Shown here one piece after another: positions 1 through 11,581 of a stretch of 11,581 nucleotides of DNA (positions within the stretch are counted from its first letter, which is position 1; each line of letters begins with the position of its first letter). The DNA comes from Nitrososphaera sp. (lineage in GTDB: Archaea > Thermoproteota > Nitrososphaeria > Nitrososphaerales > Nitrososphaeraceae), in contig JAKEIF010000019.1 of assembly GCA_022545875.1 (NCBI GenBank), forward strand, positions 1 to 11,581. Reading direction: 5' to 3'. The translations under genes were made by a program, and so were the position numbers. The notes under the pieces are model-generated. The model did no database searches, had not been told where the DNA came from, and saw nothing but the letters and a program-made list of their open reading frames with translations.

Positions 1-675
1 AAACCCCGGCATTTTTCTATTGTTGTCAGCGAAATGAGTGTGCTGTAGGAACTTTTTGCAGGAAAATATCGCACCTTCAAATGAATCCTCCTCTATGTTC
101 ATGTGAAATGTGTCAAGCAGAATCCCAAGGTTATCTAGCTGTTTCACAATCTCAAGTGCATCCGTTGCGGTAACACAGTATGGCGTGCTGTACCGGTTCA
201 GTGGTTCCAATACAAGCCTCACCCCATTATTCGCTGCGTCATTACAGAGCGCAGCTAATATCGGTAACACCTTCGTTATGATCTTGCTTTTTTCTGCATT
301 GGCAACAGCCCCATGAGTCTTGTCAAAGCCTTCAATTTCATCAGCAAATAGGCAGATATTCATCTCATTACCACCAAGCTGGCTGCACATTCTAACACAG
401 TCCTTTACATATTTCTGAGATGCTTCCACTAGGACCTCATCAGAACTCAAGAGTTTCCGCTTCCAGCCATGTCTGCTTACTCTGCCCCACATTCCCGTTA
501 TACCACATACTGAAAGCCTGGTCGTGCTCAGGACATCCTTTAGTAGCTTCAAGTCTACCTCTTCCGGCTCGCCGTACATTTCTACTGCGTCGAATCCCTG
601 GCTTGCAAGCCTTGCGATGCTTACCTCGACCGGCTCTATTTGCCTAAATGATGAAAGAGTGATTGAATATTTCAT
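1..675 (-). CDS. Sugar phosphate isomerase/epimerase, TIM barrel (partial, 3' end off the window)
   Basis: This is the first 225 residues of a xylose-isomerase-like TIM-barrel protein (AP endonuclease family 2 fold), close to the D-tagatose 3-epimerase / hydroxypyruvate isomerase type. Visible motifs are EPLNRY near residue 157 (metal-binding Glu), LDTFHMNIEE at 187-196 (metal Asp and His) and HTHFADNNR at 212-220 (metal His). These are the usual ligands for a divalent metal that drives ketose epimerisation or aldose-ketose isomerisation. The last metal Glu, expected about 30 residues later, lies beyond the left edge. The ATG start overlaps the stop of the upstream phosphatase-like gene as ATGA, so the two are probably translationally coupled and cotranscribed. 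It is clearly different in sequence from the other isomerase in this operon. The substrate cannot be read from the sequence. I am confident of the family, not of the reaction. Confidence 0.88.
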   Translation of the reverse strand, partial: MKYSITLSSFRQIEPVEVSIARLASQGFDAVEMYGEPEEVDLKLLKDVLSTTRLSVCGITGMWGRVSRHGWKRKLLSSDEVLVEASQKYVKDCVRMCSQLGGNEMNICLFADEIEGFDKTHGAVANAEKSKIITKVLPILAALCNDAANNGVRLVLEPLNRYSTPYCVTATDALEIVKQLDNLGILLDTFHMNIEEDSFEGAIFSCKKFLQHTHFADNNRKMPGF

Positions 676-1985
676 TGTCGCGCTATACACTTTACGATAT
701 CTGTGCATTTTGCGACGCCGGATTTTGCGATCTCATGCTTGATGCTTGAGCAATAAAAGGCAAGGCCCTCACCTGTCTCCAGATTAGCCGGCCTTCCATG
801 CGACCCTTTTACCAAACTTGGATCAAGCGGTATCGACTTTGTCTTTGGGTCAAAAAAAAGCTCGACCGGATCATACCCTGGCTTTCTGTGTATGTCCACC
901 CTGCGGGCAAAACTTGGAGCCTTAGTCTCATCATGCCACCAATAATAGCTGAACCACTTGTCGCGCTGTGAAATAGCCACAAGCTCTCCGCTTCGCTCGT
1001 GGTCTATTTTCAAGAGTTTCTTACCCTCGCCATCAAGTATCCTCTCAACTCCGCTGGTCGATTCAAGTGCCTTCCTTGTTTCATCCTCAAAACCATCATG
1101 TACAAAGATATGCGCCACTTGGTGATCCACCATCGCAAATGCCTTGCTGAACTCAAAATCAAGATATTCTTTACCTTGTATTTCCCGTACTGCAAGCAGG
1201 CCGGCATCTCGCAGTACTAGGTTCAAGGGAACGGAACCGTTTACGTCATTAAATGAGTATTCCGAGAGAACAATGAATTGTGTTTTATCGCTTATCCCAA
1301 GCTCGGTTGTTTTTTGTACCAGTCGTCCAACTATGTCATCTGCTTTTCGCAAGTCCTCTTTGACCCGAGCATCCGACTTGCCGAATCGCTGCGCTGAATA
1401 GTCTACATGTGGTAGATATGCGAAAAGCTGGTTAGGCCGTTTTTTCTCCAGGGTGTATTCCGCAGCCTTGGCTATCCATTCACTCGATTTGGATGACGCA
1501 AGCGGTCCCCAGTAGCCTGCCAGATCAAACTCGCCAAAGTTTTCTTTCAGTTCTTCATAATATCCCACCGGTTTTGAGTAACACCACATGACTAATCCCT
1601 CATCAAGATGTATGGGCCGCGGAGTAACTACAACATCAGAACGAGCATACATGGTGTTTTGCCAAAATAGCGCAGCGGAAGTGCCCGCATTTTGCTTGTC
1701 CCAGATCCTATCTGCCTTGACAAGCGAGCTTGGCTGTTCCCAAAAGGATGCAGTATAGGTCTTTCTATCATAAAGCCCATTTCCAATTATGCCATGCTCC
1801 TGCGGATACTTGCCAGACAAGATGCTGGCTTGGACGGTACATGTCACAGCTGGAAAGACGGGCTCTAGCTTTGCATACTCGCCGGCTTCGGCTATCTTTG
1901 CAATGTTTGGAATAAGGCCGGACTCTAGATGCTCAACTTCTAGTCCAACAATGCTCAGCACAATGGAATGTTTCGGTGCAACCAT
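672..1985 (-). CDS. Alkaline phosphatase-superfamily protein, EboF-like (nucleotide pyrophosphatase/phosphodiesterase family)
   Basis: A 437-residue protein with the type I phosphodiesterase/nucleotide pyrophosphatase layout. It has an N-terminal strand (about residues 7-15), the nucleophile segment FPAVTCT at 44-50, a central LPHVDY at 191-196, LSEY at 240-243 and DHQVAH at 287-292. Thr48 sits where the catalytic Thr of this family lies. Several usual metal ligands look replaced: no Asp in the first strand (SIVGLE), Gln instead of His four residues after Asp195, and Glu-Tyr instead of the usual Asp-His. From memory the same pattern recurs in phosphatase-like proteins of ebo-type clusters, so it is probably a family trait and not decay. 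The frame is open much further upstream (to 2264), but that part lies inside the prenyltransferase gene. The ATG at 1985, 44 bases after the upstream stop, starts right at the conserved fold. It overlaps the next gene as ATGA. Confidence 0.85.
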   Translation of the reverse strand: MVAPKHSIVLSIVGLEVEHLESGLIPNIAKIAEAGEYAKLEPVFPAVTCTVQASILSGKYPQEHGIIGNGLYDRKTYTASFWEQPSSLVKADRIWDKQNAGTSAALFWQNTMYARSDVVVTPRPIHLDEGLVMWCYSKPVGYYEELKENFGEFDLAGYWGPLASSKSSEWIAKAAEYTLEKKRPNQLFAYLPHVDYSAQRFGKSDARVKEDLRKADDIVGRLVQKTTELGISDKTQFIVLSEYSFNDVNGSVPLNLVLRDAGLLAVREIQGKEYLDFEFSKAFAMVDHQVAHIFVHDGFEDETRKALESTSGVERILDGEGKKLLKIDHERSGELVAISQRDKWFSYYWWHDETKAPSFARRVDIHRKPGYDPVELFFDPKTKSIPLDPSLVKGSHGRPANLETGEGLAFYCSSIKHEIAKSGVAKCTDIVKCIARQ

Positions 1986-2029
1986 GGTGTCTGCCAGCCT
2001 TATCTGTACATCGCTTAAATAACTTAACG

Positions 2030-2920
2030 TCAGGTTACGTATAGCTTTTTTGCCAGCAGCAAGGCTGGCACAATAAAGAGCATGGTTGCAAGACCATAAA
2101 CCAAGCCTGCCGTACCGGCCACAAACGCGGAATCGAGAATTATTATCGAGAGAACCATGTTTTTGACAGCTTTCTGAACAGACTGCGAGGATGATCGTTC
2201 TAACCGGCCAAAAGTAATTGCCATGACTGCAGAAAATATGGCCAAGTTTATCAAGAACGCCCACTGAAATTGCAGCAAAAAGCCTGCCATGGCTAGTGAC
2301 ACGGCGACGGCAGAGACTATTGCAATTGCCCCCGCCGCATTCGGCTTTTCATCGCCGACTTCTCTCTTGCTGAGCATCATGATAGCGACGACGTAGACAA
2401 AGAGCAGCACAGCGGCAACAAAGGCAACTGGGACTCCAGACGAAGCAAACAGCATGGGACTCGCTCCCAGAATCACGTTAAGAAATCTTGTGCTGCCCAT
2501 TGAAAACGGAGCCATGAGGCCGCGTTTTAGGCGAAAATCGTATGCGATTAGTGCCACTGACAGTGCGGCAGATATTGCAAGACTCGTAAGACTGACTGTC
2601 AGGGCAATGGCATTGGCGGCCATGAGTGCGGCTGTAGCGATGACTATGGCACGCTCCTTTGGGACGAGGCCAGATGCAAGCGGACGAGACGGGCGCTCCC
2701 GCTTGTCCGCTTCGATGTCAAAGTAGTCGTTTAGCACTACTCCAGCGATGTACAGCAGGATAGAAGAGACCATAAGCGAAGCGAGATGCAGGCCATTTGC
2801 TTCCGCTGCTGGAACTGTTGCAAAGTAGCCTACCAGTATGTTAGATGGGGCAGTAAATAGATTAGGAACCCTGAGAAGAAGCAGGTACTGCCTTAACGCA
2901 TTGATTCTATGATCTTGCAA
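2030..2920 (-). CDS. UbiA-family prenyltransferase (EboC-like)
   Basis: A 296-residue integral membrane protein with about eight or nine hydrophobic segments, the usual size for UbiA enzymes. These transfer an isoprenoid chain from a polyprenyl diphosphate to an acceptor within the membrane. The first Asp-rich motif is NDYFDIEAD at 64-72, followed by KRERPSRPLASG, typical of the superfamily. The second motif region is YDFRLKRG at 127-134. The start is a TTG at 2920, the most upstream possible because an in-frame TAG lies three codons before it. It overlaps the upstream isomerase gene by 28 bases. A GGGAGG about 13 bases before the TTG may be the ribosome-binding site. Neighbours point to the EboC branch and not to menaquinone or archaeal lipid synthesis, though a digeranylgeranylglyceryl phosphate synthase-like role cannot be excluded by eye. 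Confidence 0.87.
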   Translation of the reverse strand: MQDHRINALRQYLLLLRVPNLFTAPSNILVGYFATVPAAEANGLHLASLMVSSILLYIAGVVLNDYFDIEADKRERPSRPLASGLVPKERAIVIATAALMAANAIALTVSLTSLAISAALSVALIAYDFRLKRGLMAPFSMGSTRFLNVILGASPMLFASSGVPVAFVAAVLLFVYVVAIMMLSKREVGDEKPNAAGAIAIVSAVAVSLAMAGFLLQFQWAFLINLAIFSAVMAITFGRLERSSSQSVQKAVKNMVLSIIILDSAFVAGTAGLVYGLATMLFIVPALLLAKKLYVT

Positions 2921-3723
2921 AGGTGGCTATACGCCTCCCGCGCTACTTGTACGGGGTTGTCCTGATAAGGATAGAGCTCAACTGTGACAAATCCGCTGTA
3001 ACCGACATCATTCATCGCGCTAAAAACTGCCTTAAAATCGATCTCACCCCTGCCAGGCACGAGATGGTTGTGCACCCTGTTCGAAATGTCAGCAAGATGA
3101 AAATGTACTATATAGTCCGACAATTCATAGACTAACTTTGCCGGATCTTCATTTACACAGTAAAAGTGACTGATGTCAAAGTTTAGCTTGACCCAATCAG
3201 AGGAAACTTCATCGATGATCTCTTTGAATTGACCTGAATTTTCAATAAGCAGGCCGGGCTCCGGTTCCACAAGCAAGACGATGCCCTCTTTTTCAGCCAC
3301 CTTTGCCGCAGCCTTTAGGCCCTCGACAAAGATCCTTTGAAGTAAGCGGCGATCAGAGCTAGCTGGCAACGGGCCCCCGGGTTCCGTTGACAGATTCTTG
3401 GCTCCTACTTTACCTGCAAGCCTTATGCAGTTGATGGTGTGCTGTATGCGCGCCTGTCTCGAGTACTCGTCATCTATCCATGACGGATGATAAACGTCGC
3501 CCATGGCATAGAACGTAAATGCGTTAAGATTTGAGATTTGTAGCCCACAGGATGCGACCGTCTCTTTGAGAAGGTTCACTTTGCCGTCTTCAAAATCAGG
3601 CGGATAAGCATGGGGCGTGTCGCAGAGTATTTCAACTCCGCTGTAACCTATTTTTGCAATCTCCTTGATTGAATCATAAAGAGAGTATCGCTTGAAAGCA
3701 TTGGTGCTAAATGCCAGCTTCAT
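2893..3723 (-). CDS. Sugar phosphate isomerase/epimerase, TIM barrel (complete)
   Basis: A 276-residue xylose-isomerase-like TIM-barrel protein, full length for the family. Likely metal ligands are Glu153 (LLVEPEPGLL), Asp183 with His186 (NFDISHFY), His208 (HFHLADI) and Glu249 (FVTVELYPY). The GRGEIDF motif at 224-230 is typical of the sugar isomerase/epimerase group. The chosen ATG overlaps the stop of the TatD-like gene as ATGA. A GTG nine bases upstream (3732) is possible but adds only three residues and doubles as a GTGGA ribosome-binding-like sequence. It is the second gene of the operon. It is shorter than canonical EboE of bacterial ebo clusters, as I recall that family, so it may be a functional substitute and not an orthologue. 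Substrate unknown. Confidence 0.88.
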   Translation of the reverse strand: MKLAFSTNAFKRYSLYDSIKEIAKIGYSGVEILCDTPHAYPPDFEDGKVNLLKETVASCGLQISNLNAFTFYAMGDVYHPSWIDDEYSRQARIQHTINCIRLAGKVGAKNLSTEPGGPLPASSDRRLLQRIFVEGLKAAAKVAEKEGIVLLVEPEPGLLIENSGQFKEIIDEVSSDWVKLNFDISHFYCVNEDPAKLVYELSDYIVHFHLADISNRVHNHLVPGRGEIDFKAVFSAMNDVGYSGFVTVELYPYQDNPVQVAREAYSHLCKIIESMR

Positions 3724-4532
3724 GGCTTCCACGTGAATTTTGGAGACTGCTTAAAGAAGTCGTAGGCGTTGTAAAAAGTCACGCGCTCTATTTCATTGGT
3801 GCTAAATCCGGCCTTCCTCATTTCCCTCGCCACCAAAGGAACGCTTAGTGGATCCGACACTCCCCAGTCAGCCGCGCTGTGTATCATTATTCTCTCGGTG
3901 CCGTATTTTCTGATTATGCTAATCGCGCGCTCCGGTGACAGCTTGCTAACAGGATACACCGAGAGACCTGCCCACATTCCAAGCTCTAAGGTTTTTTCTA
4001 TTGTTTCTTCGACGTTATGGTCGACTAGTATTTTGGCCCGCTCATAACGCTGGCCGCCTTCGCTGTTCACAATACGCTCAATTCTCTGCATGCCCTCGGG
4101 CTTGTTGTTGTGCGGCAGATGTACCGTCATTAGCATATCCTTGTCTGCAGCGATATCCATCTGTTTTACAAAGACCTCCTCTTCTAGATGGTTTATCAGA
4201 TTGTAGCCAAGCTCGCCTACTGCAATAACTCGTTCCCGATCCAGATACTTCATCATGGCTTTTAGTGCGTCTAATGCAAGCGGTCTTTCCATCGCTTCCT
4301 TTGGGTTAACAGAGATGCAGACAAAGTGCTCGATTCCAAAGTCTTTTGCTCTCTTTGTCTCAAAAGTTATCATATGCTCCCAGTAATCTTCAAACGTGCT
4401 AACGCCTGTGCGCGGGGTGCCAAGCCAGAAGGAAGGCTGGACAATCACTTCAATTCCTGCCTTAGACATCGCATCGTAGTCATCGGTGGTGCGGGAGTAC
4501 ATGTGGATATGGGGCTCAAACAACCTTGTCAT
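3720..4532 (-). CDS. TatD-like metal-dependent hydrolase (EboB-like)
   Basis: A 270-residue amidohydrolase-superfamily protein of the TatD type, first gene of the minus-strand operon. Metal and catalytic positions are in order: HxH at 8-10 (EPHIHM), Glu107 (VIAVGELGYN), His138 (MTVHLPHNN), His172 (LVDHNVEET) and Asp222 (HSAADWGVSD). This is the full ligand set of a two-metal TatD hydrolase, so it is probably active on a phosphodiester or similar ester bond. TatD proteins are often DNases. In ebo-type clusters the homologue (EboB) is thought to act on the cluster's metabolite, and the context here favours that. The ATG follows a TATA-like box by about 26 bases, giving a leaderless transcript. 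The 3' end overlaps the next gene by four bases. Confidence 0.88.
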   Translation of the reverse strand: MTRLFEPHIHMYSRTTDDYDAMSKAGIEVIVQPSFWLGTPRTGVSTFEDYWEHMITFETKRAKDFGIEHFVCISVNPKEAMERPLALDALKAMMKYLDRERVIAVGELGYNLINHLEEEVFVKQMDIAADKDMLMTVHLPHNNKPEGMQRIERIVNSEGGQRYERAKILVDHNVEETIEKTLELGMWAGLSVYPVSKLSPERAISIIRKYGTERIMIHSAADWGVSDPLSVPLVAREMRKAGFSTNEIERVTFYNAYDFFKQSPKFTWKP

Positions 4533-4555
4533 TGTGATGTAATTACGGTAAACCC

Positions 4556-4563
4556 TTTTTATG
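4556..4563. promoter_or_regulatory. Divergent promoter: shared TATA-like box between TatD-like and dehydrogenase genes
   Basis: The intergenic space of about 100 bases holds one A/T block, TTTTTATG on the plus strand and CATAAAAA on the minus strand. On the minus strand its centre is about 27 bases before the TatD-like ATG, the spacing of a leaderless archaeal gene. On the plus strand transcription would begin near 4585-4590, before the dehydrogenase start. One box may thus serve both directions, or two overlapping promoters compete. Confidence 0.55.
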
Positions 4564-4630
4564 TTTGTAGAACAAACCTACTGTCGTCTATCATTTGGAA
4601 GCGGATCACAGCAGTAGCGCGACGGAAGGC

Positions 4631-5662
4631 ATGCAGGCCGCAGTATTTCACGGGCCAGATAACATCTTGGTGCAAAGGACCCAGTATTTCCAGGACCGGC
4701 CGGCGCTCAAAGTGAATTCCTGTGCCGTTTGCAGCTACGACGTACGGGTCTTCAGGAATGGCCATCGCAAGGTCAGCCCTCCAATAATACTGGGGCACGA
4801 GGTTTGCGGACAAGTGACCAAAAGTGTCCAAATGACAAATGGCACAATAAGCGAGGGCACAAGAGTAGCACTGTGCCCAATTATTCCATGCCTTGATTGC
4901 GTATATTGCCGTACCGGCCAGTACAATATGTGCTTAAACTTGAAAGAGATAGGGTCGACCCACAACGGCGGCTTTGCGGAATACGTCAGTATCCCGAAAC
5001 AGACTGTGAAGATGGGAGGGCTTGTGGAGGTTCCTGATAGCCTAAGTGATGAAGAGGCGTCGCTTCTTGAGCCGCTTGCCTGCTGCCTTCATGGTCTGCA
5101 GCAGCTTGGCCCCATTCACGATGCAAGACCTGTTGTCATAATTGGCGACGGACCAGTGGGACTGCTACATCTGCAGCTGTTCAAGAACTTTGTGGGTACA
5201 AGAACAGTGGTCGTAGGTAAGGTTCATTCAAGGATGCAAAAGGCGCGGTCTATGGGCGCAGAAGCTGTACTCGAATACAATGAGGACATTGCAACTAGAG
5301 TATTGGATTTCACAGGCAAGGCTGGCGCCAGCGTAGTTGTAATAGCAACGAGCAACCCTTCTGCGTTTGATCTCGTAGAAAAAGTTGCTGGAAAAAGTTC
5401 CAAGATAAGTCTGTTTGCCGGAATGCCTAGTGGGCAAAAGTTTTCTTTTGATGCCAACTGGTTACACTATAATCAGGTGTCCATCGTTGGGACCTTCAGC
5501 TCCCTTCCTCCTGTATTGGAAGAGGCTGCCCGGGTTGCAGCAGAAAGAATAGTTGACCTGTCAGAGGTAGTGACTCACAGATATTCGCTAGCTGAAGTCG
5601 AAAAAGCATTTCACACGACCGAGACATTCGGTGGACTCAGAGCGGTCATTAACAAATTCTGA
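4631..5662 (+). CDS. Zinc-dependent medium-chain alcohol/polyol dehydrogenase
   Basis: A 343-residue MDR-family dehydrogenase that oxidises an alcohol or polyol, or reduces the matching carbonyl, with NAD(P). Catalytic zinc ligands are Cys34 (CAVCSYD), His56-Glu57 (LGHEVCG) and Glu147 (EPLACC), the pattern of sorbitol/threonine dehydrogenases. The structural zinc lobe is Cys87, Cys90, Cys93 and Cys101 (PCLDCVYC to NMC). The Rossmann motif GDGPVG is at 172-177. The ATG at 4631 begins directly at the conserved first strand (MQAAVFHG). The frame is open to a TTG at 4595, which would add 12 unconserved-looking residues. It is divergent from the ebo-like operon with a shared promoter region, so it may act on the same sugar-derived metabolite as the two isomerases. 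That link is inference. Confidence 0.9.
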   Translation: MQAAVFHGPDNILVQRTQYFQDRPALKVNSCAVCSYDVRVFRNGHRKVSPPIILGHEVCGQVTKSVQMTNGTISEGTRVALCPIIPCLDCVYCRTGQYNMCLNLKEIGSTHNGGFAEYVSIPKQTVKMGGLVEVPDSLSDEEASLLEPLACCLHGLQQLGPIHDARPVVIIGDGPVGLLHLQLFKNFVGTRTVVVGKVHSRMQKARSMGAEAVLEYNEDIATRVLDFTGKAGASVVVIATSNPSAFDLVEKVAGKSSKISLFAGMPSGQKFSFDANWLHYNQVSIVGTFSSLPPVLEEAARVAAERIVDLSEVVTHRYSLAEVEKAFHTTETFGGLRAVINKF

Positions 5663-5710
5663 GTCCTGCTCGGAAACGGGGTTTTCATTAGCCCGGAATA
5701 AGCAAGTCGC

Positions 5711-5739
5711 TTTATGTTTTTTCAATTTTCACCGTTTTT
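5711..5739 (+). terminator. T-rich tract, probable archaeal terminator of the dehydrogenase gene
   Basis: About 50 bases after the dehydrogenase stop the plus strand has three closely spaced runs of T (TTTTTT, TTTT, TTTTT) with no stable hairpin before them. Archaeal RNA polymerase stops at such oligo-T tracts. Confidence 0.45.
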
Positions 5740-5775
5740 CGGCAGTGCAGAGCTCAGTCCGCGAAGATTGAATTG

Positions 5776-5865
5776 ATGACAACTAGGATTCTTCTATTGG
5801 AGTTATGCTCAGGAGCAAGAGGGAATCAGATCAAAAGTCTTGTCAACAACTTCATGTCTGAATAA
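5776..5865 (+). other. Short ORF of 29 residues, helix-turn-helix-like; uncertain
   Basis: An ATG-started frame reads TTRILLLELCSGARG, then NQIKSLVNNF, then stops. The pattern of a hydrophobic helix, a short turn and a second helix resembles the first part of a winged-helix regulator domain, but the frame ends after 29 residues. The frame is open upstream without a start back to about 5690. A GCTTTATG box at 5709 could be a promoter. It could be a small gene, a remnant of a regulator, or chance. The rest of the gap 5663-5880 shows no gene. Confidence 0.2.
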
Positions 5866-7039: not shown

Positions 7040-7315
7040 ATGCGAGCGCGCCGATTCAAAGAAATACCGGAAGCGCGAATTATGGCTGTGGTCGGCATCA
7101 AACAGATTGCAATGCAACTTTGCACCTGCACCTGGATAGAGATCATGACGGGCTCGGGTATAGTGCTGTACATGTTGTACCTCGACAATTACATGCTTGC
7201 AGGAGTCACTGCTGCAGCGTTTGCGCCACTTGTCATATTCCACTTTGCCATGACAAAACTTCCAAAGAGCAACGTCGACTGGAAGCCAAGAAACCGGATG
7301 ATAAAAATCCGCTAA
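7040..7315 (+). CDS. Small two-span membrane protein, unknown function
   Basis: A protein of about 91 residues with hydrophobic spans roughly at IEIMTGSGIVLYMLYL and MLAGVTAAAFAPLVIFHFAM, a basic N-terminus (MRARRFKEIPEAR) and a basic tail ending RNRMIKIR. The start is uncertain. The frame is open to TTG codons at 7016 and 7019, which add eight or seven residues. ATG 7040 has a weak AGGA just before it, and ATG 7082 would still keep both spans. TATA-like stretches at 6965-6972 and 6977-6986 could drive it. The stop overlaps the convergent pyrI stop: the four bases CTAA at 7312-7315 contain TAA on this strand and TAG on the other. I do not recognise the family. Confidence 0.6.
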   Translation: MRARRFKEIPEARIMAVVGIKQIAMQLCTCTWIEIMTGSGIVLYMLYLDNYMLAGVTAAAFAPLVIFHFAMTKLPKSNVDWKPRNRMIKIR

Positions 7316-7773
7316 AAGACCAGTTCGTCCGTTGACAATATCCTTGCGCAATACCTGCACTTGAGCATTACTTTTTCCTTGTCGATTATGTCTATTGTAG
7401 ACCTGATCTCTTCCCCGCTGTTTGTAATGCATTTCAAATTGGGACACTTGAAAATCCCAACTATGGATTCTGGCAGCTGGATCTTGCGCTTCTCAACCAG
7501 CTTGTAGTCACGGATGATATTGATTGTTGCCCGCGGCGCAATGAGGGCCAGCTTGTTAGTTTCGCTAATCTCTAGGAATCGGTTTTCCACCTTGATAATA
7601 TCCTTCTTGCTGTGCTTGCTGCTCGGAACATTTAGGGCCACCGTAATGACGTTGCCCTCCTTTCCAGCGATAGTTAGCGCCTGAAGAACCAAGAGGGCCT
7701 TGCCGGCTTCGATGTGGTCGATCACTGTGCCGTCCTTTATCCTGCGGACAAGAAGCTGGCTCGTGTCAGACAT
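7312..7773 (-). CDS. pyrI: Aspartate carbamoyltransferase regulatory subunit
   Basis: A 153-residue protein matching PyrI in length and order. The N-terminal allosteric domain contains the signature GTVIDHIEAGKAL (residues 15-27), where nucleotides bind. The C-terminal zinc domain has ligands Cys110, Cys115, Cys139 and Cys142 (CPNLKC and CRYC), which contact the catalytic PyrB subunit. Together PyrB and PyrI form the enzyme that makes carbamoyl-aspartate, the committed step of pyrimidine synthesis, with feedback control by nucleotides. The ATG at 7773 follows a TATA-like GCTTTTAAT by about 27 bases, so it probably has its own leaderless transcript. A TTG 15 bases upstream is less likely. No pyrB is visible in the window, which is unusual because archaeal pyrB and pyrI are often adjacent. 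Confidence 0.95.
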   Translation of the reverse strand: MSDTSQLLVRRIKDGTVIDHIEAGKALLVLQALTIAGKEGNVITVALNVPSSKHSKKDIIKVENRFLEISETNKLALIAPRATINIIRDYKLVEKRKIQLPESIVGIFKCPNLKCITNSGEEIRSTIDIIDKEKVMLKCRYCARILSTDELVF

Positions 7774-7796
7774 GATTCCCGATGACAAGCCTTACC

Positions 7797-9571: not shown

Positions 9572-9608
9572 CGGCTGCTATTAACAACCGCACGTGATTG
9601 AGCAGCCG
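9572..9608. repeat. Inverted repeat, 8-base-pair stem
   Basis: CGGCTGCT (9572-9579) pairs perfectly with AGCAGCCG (9601-9608) around a 21-base loop. It is the second stable stem in the gene-free stretch 9494-9955. Confidence 0.45.
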
Positions 9609-9711
9609 GCGATAAAGGATTTTGTGGTAAGATCTACCAGAATAATGTAGCTTGCCGCAACATGGCTTGCTCTCTGGTTGACTATCTAGTCAGCAACAGT
9701 TGTCAGGTTTG

Positions 9712-9825
9712 CATTAATGGCTCAAAGGGGAGAGTAGCGACACCGGCAGGAATTTGACGGTGTCGCCAAGGGAGAACGGGATGCTCGGGAAAGCTTCCAA
9801 TTCTCTCCCCTTTGACCCTCTAATG
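9712..9825 (-). ncRNA. Candidate structured RNA: long closing stem enclosing a 9-base-pair hairpin
   Basis: A perfect 13-base-pair stem, TCAAAGGGGAGAG (9722-9734) with CTCTCCCCTTTGA (9803-9815), is extended outwards by GG/CC and CATTA/TAATG with a few mismatches. Inside it, GCGACACCG (9737-9745) pairs perfectly with CGGTGTCGC (9758-9766), and GGAA/TTCC at 9788-9798 can form a third short stem, giving a three-way junction. The strand is a guess. On the minus strand a TATA-like CCTTAAGTC (9838-9846) would start transcription near 9815, exactly at the first base of the closing stem. A 39-codon GTG frame also crosses it on the minus strand but is less convincing than the pairing. No known RNA family is recognised, and a small palindromic mobile element is an alternative. 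Confidence 0.4.
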
Positions 9826-9854
9826 ATCACGGTTTAGACTTAAGGAACGCGCTT

Positions 9855-9955: not shown

Positions 9956-11098
9956 TTATCCAAATGTGAACGTGTAAATCTGAAAGCCCTTGCCGATCGC
10001 CGTAATTTCGATTGTCCTTGTGCCATAATCGTCGTGCATCGCAATATTGTATAGTCTCTGACCGTCCACGTCTAGTTGGCCCGTCTCGGAAACATCAGCC
10101 CCGCGGCCATCGCCGGTCAGCTGCACCCCGTTCTCGACTATATGCAGCTCTCCCTGCCCGCCTGCTACAATGTTTACAGCCTTTGCCGAGTACGATAAGA
10201 CGATCCTTCCAATCTCTCCCTGCAGCTCCATTGAATCTGGGCTGTTCTTCCAGTCCCCGGAAACATAAATGATGTTGGGCTTGATTTCAGAATTTTCCGG
10301 GATGCTATAGCTGACAACTTCGCCCGGCTTGAAGCCTTCCGGGTTTCCAAGTTTTGCCCTGGCAAACTGGTACCCAAAGTACAGCTCCGGGGTCCGGATC
10401 TTGCCAAAGTCCACGTTCTGCGCGTCCGGCTGGCTTATCGACCCGTCTATGCTAATGGTCTGCCCGGAATTTGCTGCGCGCTCTGCCAGGAGCGACTGAA
10501 TCACTTTTTCAGTCTCTGCGTACGCGCCTTCGCCTATGTGATCGTAGCGGATGTAGCCTTCGTCGTCTATCAGATACTTGCGCGGCCAGTACCTGTTTTC
10601 GTATTCCCTCCATGTGCCCTTGTCGTTGTCCTGGACTACGGGATATTCTATACCAAACTTTTCCACCGCTGCTACGACGTTGTCATGATTTTTTTCAAAC
10701 TCAAATTCTGGAGTATGGACTCCAACGATTACGAGTCCCTGGTCCGCATACTTTTCATGCCACGCGTTAAGGTAAGGAATCGTCCTGATGCAGTTGATGC
10801 AACTATACGTCCAAAAATCTACGAGCACTACTTTGCCCCTGAGATCTGCAAGCGACAGCTCTTCCGTATTGACATGGCCACTTATCTTGGCAAGCTCTGG
10901 GGCCAGCTTGAACTGCGACTTGTCTATCTGAACCTTCGTTATGGTGCCGTTTTCCTCCACGACAGCAGCCGGCACAAAATTAACTTGGTGACCTGACGCC
11001 CTGTTCAAGTCAGGGCTGTTAAAGTAAATCCCGAATCCCGCAATAAGCGCGACTACTCCAACCCCGACTGCAAGCGCGCTCAGATTGTCGGTATTCAA
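9956..11098 (-). CDS. Membrane-anchored TlpA/DipZ-like thioredoxin-fold protein with C-terminal DipZ-type domain
   Basis: A 380-residue protein anchored by one N-terminal hydrophobic span (about residues 7-26) and facing outward. Residues about 75-210 form a thioredoxin domain with WTYSCINCIR (Cys100 and Cys103), the CxxC signature of DipZ/TlpA-like disulfide reductases, and the cis-proline region near YWPRKYLID. The C-terminal third (about 235-380) matches the beta-sandwich domain found after thioredoxin in DipZ (LYFGYQFA, IIYVSGDWKN, IVLSYSAKAVNIVAGG). It probably receives electrons from the CcdA-like protein encoded just upstream and reduces extracytoplasmic disulfides or supports cytochrome c maturation. 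It starts with TTG, whose TTGA overlaps the ccdA stop. GAGAGG lies just before it, so translation is coupled. Confidence 0.9.
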   Translation of the reverse strand: MNTDNLSALAVGVGVVALIAGFGIYFNSPDLNRASGHQVNFVPAAVVEENGTITKVQIDKSQFKLAPELAKISGHVNTEELSLADLRGKVVLVDFWTYSCINCIRTIPYLNAWHEKYADQGLVIVGVHTPEFEFEKNHDNVVAAVEKFGIEYPVVQDNDKGTWREYENRYWPRKYLIDDEGYIRYDHIGEGAYAETEKVIQSLLAERAANSGQTISIDGSISQPDAQNVDFGKIRTPELYFGYQFARAKLGNPEGFKPGEVVSYSIPENSEIKPNIIYVSGDWKNSPDSMELQGEIGRIVLSYSAKAVNIVAGGQGELHIVENGVQLTGDGRGADVSETGQLDVDGQRLYNIAMHDDYGTRTIEITAIGKGFQIYTFTFG

Positions 11099-11581
11099 AT
11101 TCCTCTCTCCAAGTTTATGATTTCGCTGGCTAGTGGAAAGTTGCCGATAATGCTGAGCTGGTTAGTGAAGACTAGGATGCCAAGTGCAATCAATATGGCG
11201 CCCATAATCGGGTTGAAGTATTTCAGGTGCTTCACCATCTTGCGGATGACCCGCGTCGCCTGCGAAAAGAATGCTCCTGTTATCAGAAATGGCACTCCAA
11301 GGCCTAGCGCGTAAGCGAGCAGCGAATTGTATGCCGCGCCTGGAGAAGTAGCGGCCAGCGTAAGCGTAGTGCCTAGAATTGGCCCGACGCATGGGGTCCA
11401 GCCCGAAGCAAACGCCGCGCCAAAAACAAACGAGGTGATATATGTAGTCTTGAATTTCGGAAGAGAAGTCATTCTCTTTTCAAAGTTGAGGAATCTGAGT
11501 CTCATGGACAATATGAGGTATGCCCCAAATCCCATAATCACGACTCCGCCAATTGACTGAAATGTGCTCTGAAAGCCAGTC
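11095..11581 (-). CDS. CcdA-family cytochrome c biogenesis / thiol-disulfide transporter (partial, 5' end off the window)
   Basis: The last 161 or so residues of a polytopic membrane protein of the CcdA/DsbD-beta family, which passes reducing equivalents across the membrane through two intramembrane cysteines. The reading frame is open to the right edge, with FQSIGGVVIMGFGAYLI at the visible start. The hallmark SGWTPCVGPILG, carrying one of the two cysteines, sits after a basic loop (RLRFLNFEKR). Further spans are seen at YALGLGVPFLITGAF and PIMGAILIALGILVF. The first half with the other cysteine lies outside. It ends in TGA overlapping the TTG start of the TlpA/DipZ-like gene, so the two form an operon and probably an electron relay. 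Confidence 0.9.
   Translation of the reverse strand, partial: TGFQSTFQSIGGVVIMGFGAYLILSMRLRFLNFEKRMTSLPKFKTTYITSFVFGAAFASGWTPCVGPILGTTLTLAATSPGAAYNSLLAYALGLGVPFLITGAFFSQATRVIRKMVKHLKYFNPIMGAILIALGILVFTNQLSIIGNFPLASEIINLERGI

Follow-up and report, generated by a model that had tools for sequence, protein, structure and literature searches.

Evidence by homology for an ebo-type gene cluster lacking EboA and EboD in ammonia-oxidizer-type archaea

Known ebo systems and the archaeal locus

The available parts of four published accounts (PMC5133447, PMC6282210, PMC9235831, PMC6092422) describe ebo gene clusters in bacteria and algae. The full set, EboA to EboF (ABCDEF), and other arrangements with EboA and EboD are known there from Bacteroidota, Cyanobacteria and eustigmatophyte plastids (PMC5133447, in part); the clusters occur in many bacteria and algal plastids, are needed for scytonemin formation in Nostoc, and had no known product when they were named in 2016. 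A prenylated cyclitol was earlier proposed as the product of bacterial ebo clusters (PMC5133447, PMC6092422), and the available parts of the four papers report none. The words "Archae" or "archaea" occur twice each in those of PMC5133447, PMC6282210 and PMC9235831, referring to other prenyltransferases or lipids, and are absent from that of PMC6092422; "inositol" is absent from the main texts of all four. A literature search, with preprints and most subscription papers outside its scope, returned no report of an archaeal ebo cluster and nothing further on SCO3242 or on ebo clusters with inositol-phosphate synthase (INO1). Here we describe a locus of Nitrososphaera sp. (assembly GCA_022545875.1, contig JAKEIF010000019.1) that is well supported, as far as homology can tell, as an ebo-type cluster of ammonia-oxidizer-type archaea without EboA and EboD.

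The window analysed is this whole contig (G000:C190 in our numbering; 11,581 bases), one of 284 in a genome that is 72% complete. Positions 1-4532 are filled by a tight minus-strand operon in the order EboB/TatD-like protein, a TIM barrel (TIMa), EboC/UbiA-like protein, EboF/phosphodiesterase-like protein and another TIM barrel (TIMb), the last cut off at position 1 by the contig end. The spacing is operon-like: EboB and TIMa (3720-3723) and EboF and TIMb (672-675) overlap by the 4 nucleotides (nt) ATGA, the TTG start of EboC overlaps the stop of the preceding gene, and 44 nt separate EboC from EboF. An earlier, sequence-only reading had placed these five proteins in one tight operon of an archaeal host; all five are present, in that order, and the archaeal origin is supported.

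The locus shares clustered EboB, EboC, EboF and an EboE-like TIM barrel with the ebo operons that carry EboA and EboD, which were also found on plasmids of Azospirillum, Mycetohabitans, Salipiger and Ketogulonicigenium. It differs from them in having neither EboA nor EboD, in an EboE-like protein of 276 amino acids (aa) that lacks the C-terminal extension of EboE (about 390 aa), and in an extra epimerase-type TIM barrel and a zinc dehydrogenase. With no EboA and no EboD-type cyclase, the cluster is not a canonical ABCDEF operon. The SCO3242-type clusters of Streptomyces (order INO1-UbiA-TIM-EboA-TatD-EboE-EboF) resemble the window in EboB, EboC, EboF and two TIM barrels, and hold an inositol-phosphate synthase in the place of EboD; they have EboA and a long EboE, both absent from the window, which has no INO1 linked to it either.

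The haloarchaeal clusters, as on plasmids of Halocatena, Natronococcus and Haladaptatus, also lack EboA, EboD and the long EboE (0 of 24 loci among the matches listed), and their TIMa is 39-42% identical to that of the window. They differ in that INO1 is linked in 19 of the 24 listed loci and in that their TIMb is EboE-like, which that of the window is not.

Relationship of the cluster proteins to ebo families

The UbiA-like protein of the window is best matched in NCBIfam by the EboC model NF035940 (174.9 bits), followed by SCO3242 (143.9 bits) and a lipid prenyltransferase model (63.5 bits). A Nitrosopumilaceae representative and one from genus g2 likewise score highest with EboC (145 and 137 bits) and next with SCO3242. 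In a 41-row tree that sets 18 ebo-type or archaeal-cluster proteins against 23 others, it falls into one clade with ebo UbiA with support of 100/99. The tree took 24 of 27 matches, leaving out two duplicate proteins (L113, L115) and a frame with a stop (L116). Its outgroup rows are E. coli UbiA and 22 paralogues taken from six genomes of the class, which presumably include the lipid and quinone enzymes. In the alignment, Arg145 is present in 30/30 ebo-type rows and 0/23 others, and Tyr57 in 27/30 (Phe in the other three) and 0/23, E. coli UbiA having Arg there. The window protein carries both residues. It lacks the second DxxxD motif, as do 28/30 ebo rows and also 13/23 others. UbiA-297 of Maribacter, by the available description in PMC9235831, has a tyrosine at 56 in place of arginine and conserves R145; the likeness to the window EboC, compared by description only, thus consists of a tyrosine near residue 56 and R145.

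The TatD_DNase match of the EboB-like protein is weak (41.5 bits), although above the cut-off of 27. The protein is 38-45% identical to EboB-type proteins of seven bacterial and three haloarchaeal clusters, and together with these it splits from E. coli TatD and YcfH with support of 100/100 in a tree with two outgroup rows only. Thirty-nine columns are invariant across 17 EboB rows. Among solved structures it comes nearest to the uncharacterized AF_1765 (146.8 bits), with TatD-type nucleases at 43.3 bits.

The EboF-like protein is 37-43% identical to its counterparts in the bacterial and haloarchaeal clusters opened. It was chosen as the probe for bacterial clusters because a tblastn search of plasmids with UbiA matched only three records, all haloarchaeal. 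EboF matched 55 plasmid records, 52 of them over at least 80% of its length; identity in the best 40 of the 55 is 38-43% over 85-100% of the length. Ebo genes were present at all nine of the plasmid loci opened among these 55 (seven by annotation, two by profiles). EboF is the sole PF01663 protein in 4/4 cluster-bearing genomes tested, and is absent from 2/2 genomes without the cluster.

Profile comparison (hhalign) relates TIMa to EboE at 96.7% over 150 columns, and AlphaFold2 predicts a confident TIM barrel (mean pLDDT 94.4). Its best solved relatives are MJ1311, Art22, TM_0416 (which we take to be IolO), IolI, AsbF (presumably dehydroshikimate dehydratase) and IolE. The window TIMb shows no such similarity to EboE (2.5%), and its best models are IolO (NF041099, 107 bits) and D-psicose epimerase (85 bits), both under the cut-off of 300. 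The TIMb found in haloarchaea, Nitrosopumilaceae and bacteria is of another type, EboE-like by profile (96.9%). This changes the earlier suggestion that two isomerases replace the longer EboE: the two are not equivalent, TIMa being EboE-like by profile and TIMb of the IolO/ketose-epimerase type. A complete homologue of the window TIMb lies at L033 (14378-15235). At two loci, L031 (6324-7207, in a single-contig genome of the same genus) and L170 (11605 to about 12515, in Nitrosotalea sp. FS), the second TIM barrel is split over two reading frames, possibly by decay or sequencing error.

The zinc dehydrogenase reads away from EboB and scores 140 bits with threonine dehydrogenase and 136 bits with scyllo-inosose dehydrogenase IolM, both far under cut-off. 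Of the 33 loci opened, 21 have a zinc alcohol dehydrogenase close by, either within three open reading frames (ORFs) of EboB or past the other end of the operon; its orthology is unsure, since the Nitrosopumilaceae counterparts are only 22-27% identical to that of the window.

Distribution, missing partners and other features of the window

Among 250 genomes of the class, with EboB hits kept at E 4e-86 or better and four weaker TatD matches (E 7e-25 to 7e-21) set aside before counting, EboB is present in 34, EboF in 34 and TIMa in 33; 32 genomes have all three and 36 have any of them. EboB and EboF are associated (Fisher's test, 1e-35, kinship ignored). The cluster is patchy inside genera; genus g1, for example, has three listed genomes with it and six without. 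We opened 33 of the 40 EboB-like places (the window and 32 others), several on short contigs and one holding a distant TatD (L062, 29% identity). EboB, TIM, EboC and EboF are consecutive in 12 of the 33, strictly so in 11 and with a small overlapping ORF between them in L032, which argues for a gene order beyond chance. EboB, TIMa, EboC and EboF also occur in records including Nitrososphaera sp. AFS, Candidatus Nitrosotalea sp. FS and a Nitrosopumilus metagenome-assembled genome, and TIMa, EboC and EboF on a short Nitrosotenuis contig. Two Nitrosopumilaceae loci (L059, L061) combine EboB, EboC and EboF with two EboE-like TIM barrels of ~280 aa, whereas in the window only TIMa is EboE-like. The ebo relationship put forward by the sequence-only reading is supported: UbiA groups with ebo UbiA and outside the paralogues of six relatives, EboB and the phosphatase-like EboF are close to ebo proteins by identity, and the genes co-occur.

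Dihydroorotate dehydrogenase genes beside EboB in some genera look like ordinary neighbours. In genus g2 an NHL beta-propeller protein (L053, 15947-17230) adjoins TIMa-EboC; it scores 238.7 bits with ScyF, missing the cut-off of 350, and a protein at L056 (6439-7770) clusters with it.

That EboA and an EboD-type cyclase are missing, as first read from the window, agrees with profile searches of 14 cluster-bearing genomes; we base it on the 13 relatives, since the genome of the window is incomplete. EboD-type PF01761 is above cut-off in 0/14, with the control found in 11/14 and a single weak match at 20.3 bits against a cut-off of 24.2 (G079). EboA (NF035938, NF035937) was found in 0/14 with no built-in control responding; as a positive control, NF035938 was found in 3/3 bacterial plasmids and was silent in 3/3 archaeal genomes. 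Of 21 genomes, 20 carry an unlinked INO1, and the one without it is the incomplete genome of the window. A second INO1 copy was considered as the missing cyclase and rejected: genomes that lack EboB (G132, G136, G138, G072, G040) have such a copy as well, and four second and 12 first copies lie across a 100/100 branch from 41 cluster-linked INO1, in a tree whose bootstrap has not settled and in which two second copies are 214-aa pieces.

A wider scan, which took one genome per species with TIMa and the best 80 of 450 relatives and is no census, shows that this core is not confined to archaea. All its counts, here and below, are among the matches listed. EboA and the long EboE profiles are found in 0/80 loci and an EboD-like protein in 2/80. 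The 24 haloarchaeal loci have EboB in 24, EboC in 24 and EboF in 23; two Haloferax loci, L129 and L130, hold EboB, EboC, EboF, INO1, TIMa and TIMb. Three haloarchaeal plasmids opened apart from the scan carry EboB-TIMa-EboC-TIMb with EboF, and two of these INO1; one of the 24 loci, L125, and L074 are one and the same plasmid. The nine Nitrososphaeria loci have EboB in eight, EboC and EboF in nine and INO1 in none, and the 47 bacterial loci EboB in 13, EboC in 29, EboF in 16 and INO1 in 20, with EboB, EboC and EboF together in 11. The cluster is thus an archaeal ebo variant as the sequence-only reading had it, but not one peculiar to archaea, as not only haloarchaea but also several bacterial phyla have the core without EboA and EboD, in many cases together with INO1.

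Two Paenibacillus loci show the order TIMb-EboB-TIMa-EboC-EboF with two further genes after it. In L156 these are an IolE-like gene and a cyclase, and L167 has homologues of both in the same order. The EboC of L156 passes the NCBI cut-off (264 against 250 bits). The IolE-like protein scores 275.5 bits as myo-inosose-2 dehydratase, missing the cut-off of 290, and its nearest solved structure is IolE; that of the cyclase is 2-deoxy-scyllo-inosose synthase (304 bits), with dehydroquinate synthase next (136 bits).

Seven of the 47 bacterial loci (L174, at 3867-5848, and L148, L155, L158, L160, L188, L197) encode a ~400-aa family directly upstream of the TIM barrels. Of two members scanned with the squalene-hopene cyclase C-terminal Pfam model, that of L174, a locus that also encodes a YdjY-domain protein, passes (32.1 against 26.1 bits), and that of L155 falls slightly short (25.6). 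A gene of the ScyD/ScyE family stands beside Streptomyces cluster L067.

Table 1. Genes of the ebo-type operon, with the start codons that match homologues, and the adjoining dehydrogenase.
Feature	Position	Strand	Start	Profile match
EboB-like metal-dependent hydrolase, TatD/amidohydrolase fold	3720..4532	-	ATG 4532	PF01026, 41.5 bits
TIMa, EboE-like xylose-isomerase-type TIM barrel, 276 aa	2893..3723	-	ATG 3723	PF01261 (AP_endonuc_2), 155 bits
EboC-like UbiA-superfamily prenyltransferase	2030..2920	-	TTG 2920 (likely)	UbiA, 66 bits; NF035940, 174.9 bits
EboF-like type I phosphodiesterase/nucleotide pyrophosphatase	672..1985	-	ATG 1985	PF01663 (Phosphodiest), 178 bits, scored on longer frame from 2264
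TIMb, IolO/ketose-3-epimerase-like TIM barrel, incomplete at contig end	1..675	-	ATG 675	AP_endonuc_2, 91 bits; NF041099, 107 bits
Divergent zinc-dependent alcohol/polyol dehydrogenase	about 4631-5662	+	ATG about 4631	ADH_N, ADH_zinc_N

Elsewhere in the window, an aspartate carbamoyltransferase regulatory subunit is encoded at 7312-7788 (178 bits, cut-off 149). A long hairpin lies at 9720-9825, with arms around CTCAAAGGGGAGAG and CTCTCCCCTTTGA, and the region 9600-9850 folds better than 200/200 shuffles (z -3.67). Rfam gave no match in the window up to E 1, the exact hairpin arm was found in 0/204 loci, and viral contigs gave no match to a 25-base stretch. At 9956-11580 a Thioredoxin_10/redoxin protein adjoins a DsbD-like membrane protein (weak, under cut-off); they are possibly a thiol-redox pair unrelated to the ebo cluster.

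Proposed function and its alternatives

On balance, we favour a role for the cluster as an archaeal ebo variant that would convert a cyclitol into an isoprenylated small molecule. We infer every reaction, their order and the product from the observed gene content, homology, clades and co-occurrence. The module keeps EboB, EboC, EboF and the EboE-like TIM barrel, shows neither EboA nor a linked cyclase of its own, and adds an epimerase-type TIM barrel and, often, the zinc dehydrogenase. The ring would come from the inositol-phosphate synthase of the cell, EboF may remove or release phosphate, and the dehydrogenase could make a keto-cyclitol, on which the two TIM barrels would act by epimerising, isomerising or dehydrating it. 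UbiA enzymes are isoprenyltransferases, and in vitro a bacterial EboC works as one (PMC9235831), which speaks for the proposal; EboC would add an isoprenyl chain at the membrane, and EboB may hydrolyse a late intermediate. That a general INO1 and a divergent dehydrogenase may replace a linked cyclase is the weakest step. The EboD, INO1 and inosose-synthase-like families close sugar phosphates into six-membered carbocycles. Since these three kinds of carbocycle-forming enzyme adjoin one core, the substrate common to the clusters is probably a cyclitol. Nine of the 47 bacterial loci have INO1 and TIMa but no EboC in the fetched stretch, which suggests that TIMa may act on the INO1 product and would tie TIMa to a cyclitol.

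Several observations weigh against this proposal. The genes are dispersed in many relatives, with linkage partial or absent outside the 12 of 33 loci, and in the stretch fetched the bacterial loci often lack EboC (18/47), EboB (34/47) or EboF (31/47), partly because of contig ends. No INO1 is linked in the nine Nitrososphaeria loci, and the sampled genomic INO1 copies stand apart from the cluster-type INO1 in the tree. The window proteins miss the curated cut-offs of 250 bits for both EboC (174.9) and EboE (TIMa, 36.9). A long-branch warning attaches to the main split of the UbiA tree, and a distant protein of the class (G043, branch 5.92) falls inside the archaeal EboB set of the TatD tree with its two outgroup rows. 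The best NCBIfam model for the L156 cyclase is AroB (222 bits, missing the cut-off of 305). According to the available part of PMC9235831, an R145A variant is about as active as wild type, so that R145 carries less weight, and the acceptor reported for EboC is aromatic and no cyclitol, the bacterial enzyme farnesylating 8-hydroxyquinoline-2-carboxylate in vitro.

This aromatic acceptor agrees with a broader and rather doubtful idea, that ebo clusters of archaea and bacteria turn a cyclitol into a prenylated polyhydroxybenzene without the shikimate pathway. The keto-cyclitol, supplied by EboD, by INO1 and a dehydrogenase, or by 2-deoxy-scyllo-inosose synthase, would be dehydrated by the paired TIM barrels, as kin of IolE and AsbF, until aromatic, and EboC would then prenylate it. 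A somewhat better, though still minor, chance is given to a membrane lipid carrier, a prenylated cyclitol that would help some other metabolite reach the cell surface, in the way that the authors of PMC6282210 proposed for export of the scytonemin monomer in Nostoc. Single deletions of ebo A, B, C, E or F and deletion of the cluster are described in the available part of that paper as scytoneminless, with monomer accumulating in the cytoplasm. The NHL/ScyF-like protein beside TIMa-EboC in genus g2, the ScyD/ScyE family gene beside the Streptomyces cluster and ABC transporter genes after the Halocatena cluster are in line with a carrier. However, NHL propellers are a broad family, no transporter is among the window ORFs scanned, and the available parts of PMC5133447, PMC6282210, PMC9235831 and PMC6092422 mention no isolated carrier. 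The carrier proposed in PMC6282210, so far as that source was available, is compatible with the prenylated-cyclitol mechanism.

The resemblance of TIMb to IolO and of the dehydrogenase to IolM would also fit an inositol or polyol catabolic operon with IolO-, IolM- and IolE-like genes and a chance UbiA gene. This is improbable, as in haloarchaea and bacteria the core is repeatedly accompanied by EboC- and EboF-type genes, the UbiA lies in the ebo clade, Iol models score far under cut-off, and neither an Iol kinase nor an Iol aldolase is among the window ORFs scanned (no genome-wide search was made). Even less likely is a role in the synthesis of membrane lipids or quinones, of the DGGGP synthase, MenA or archaetidylinositol type. 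Although the nearest solved relative of the window UbiA is DGGGP synthase (44.8 bits), the 22 paralogues of six genomes fall outside the ebo clade, and 214 of the 250 genomes of the class, including single-contig ones, have none of EboB, EboF and TIMa.

If the proposed conversion of a cyclitol into an isoprenylated molecule is correct, ebo would span Archaea, and the occurrence of three different ring-closing enzymes next to the same core would confine the choice of substrate to a cyclitol or an inosose. Within single archaeal genera, some related genomes carry the cluster and others do not, which makes for natural comparisons.

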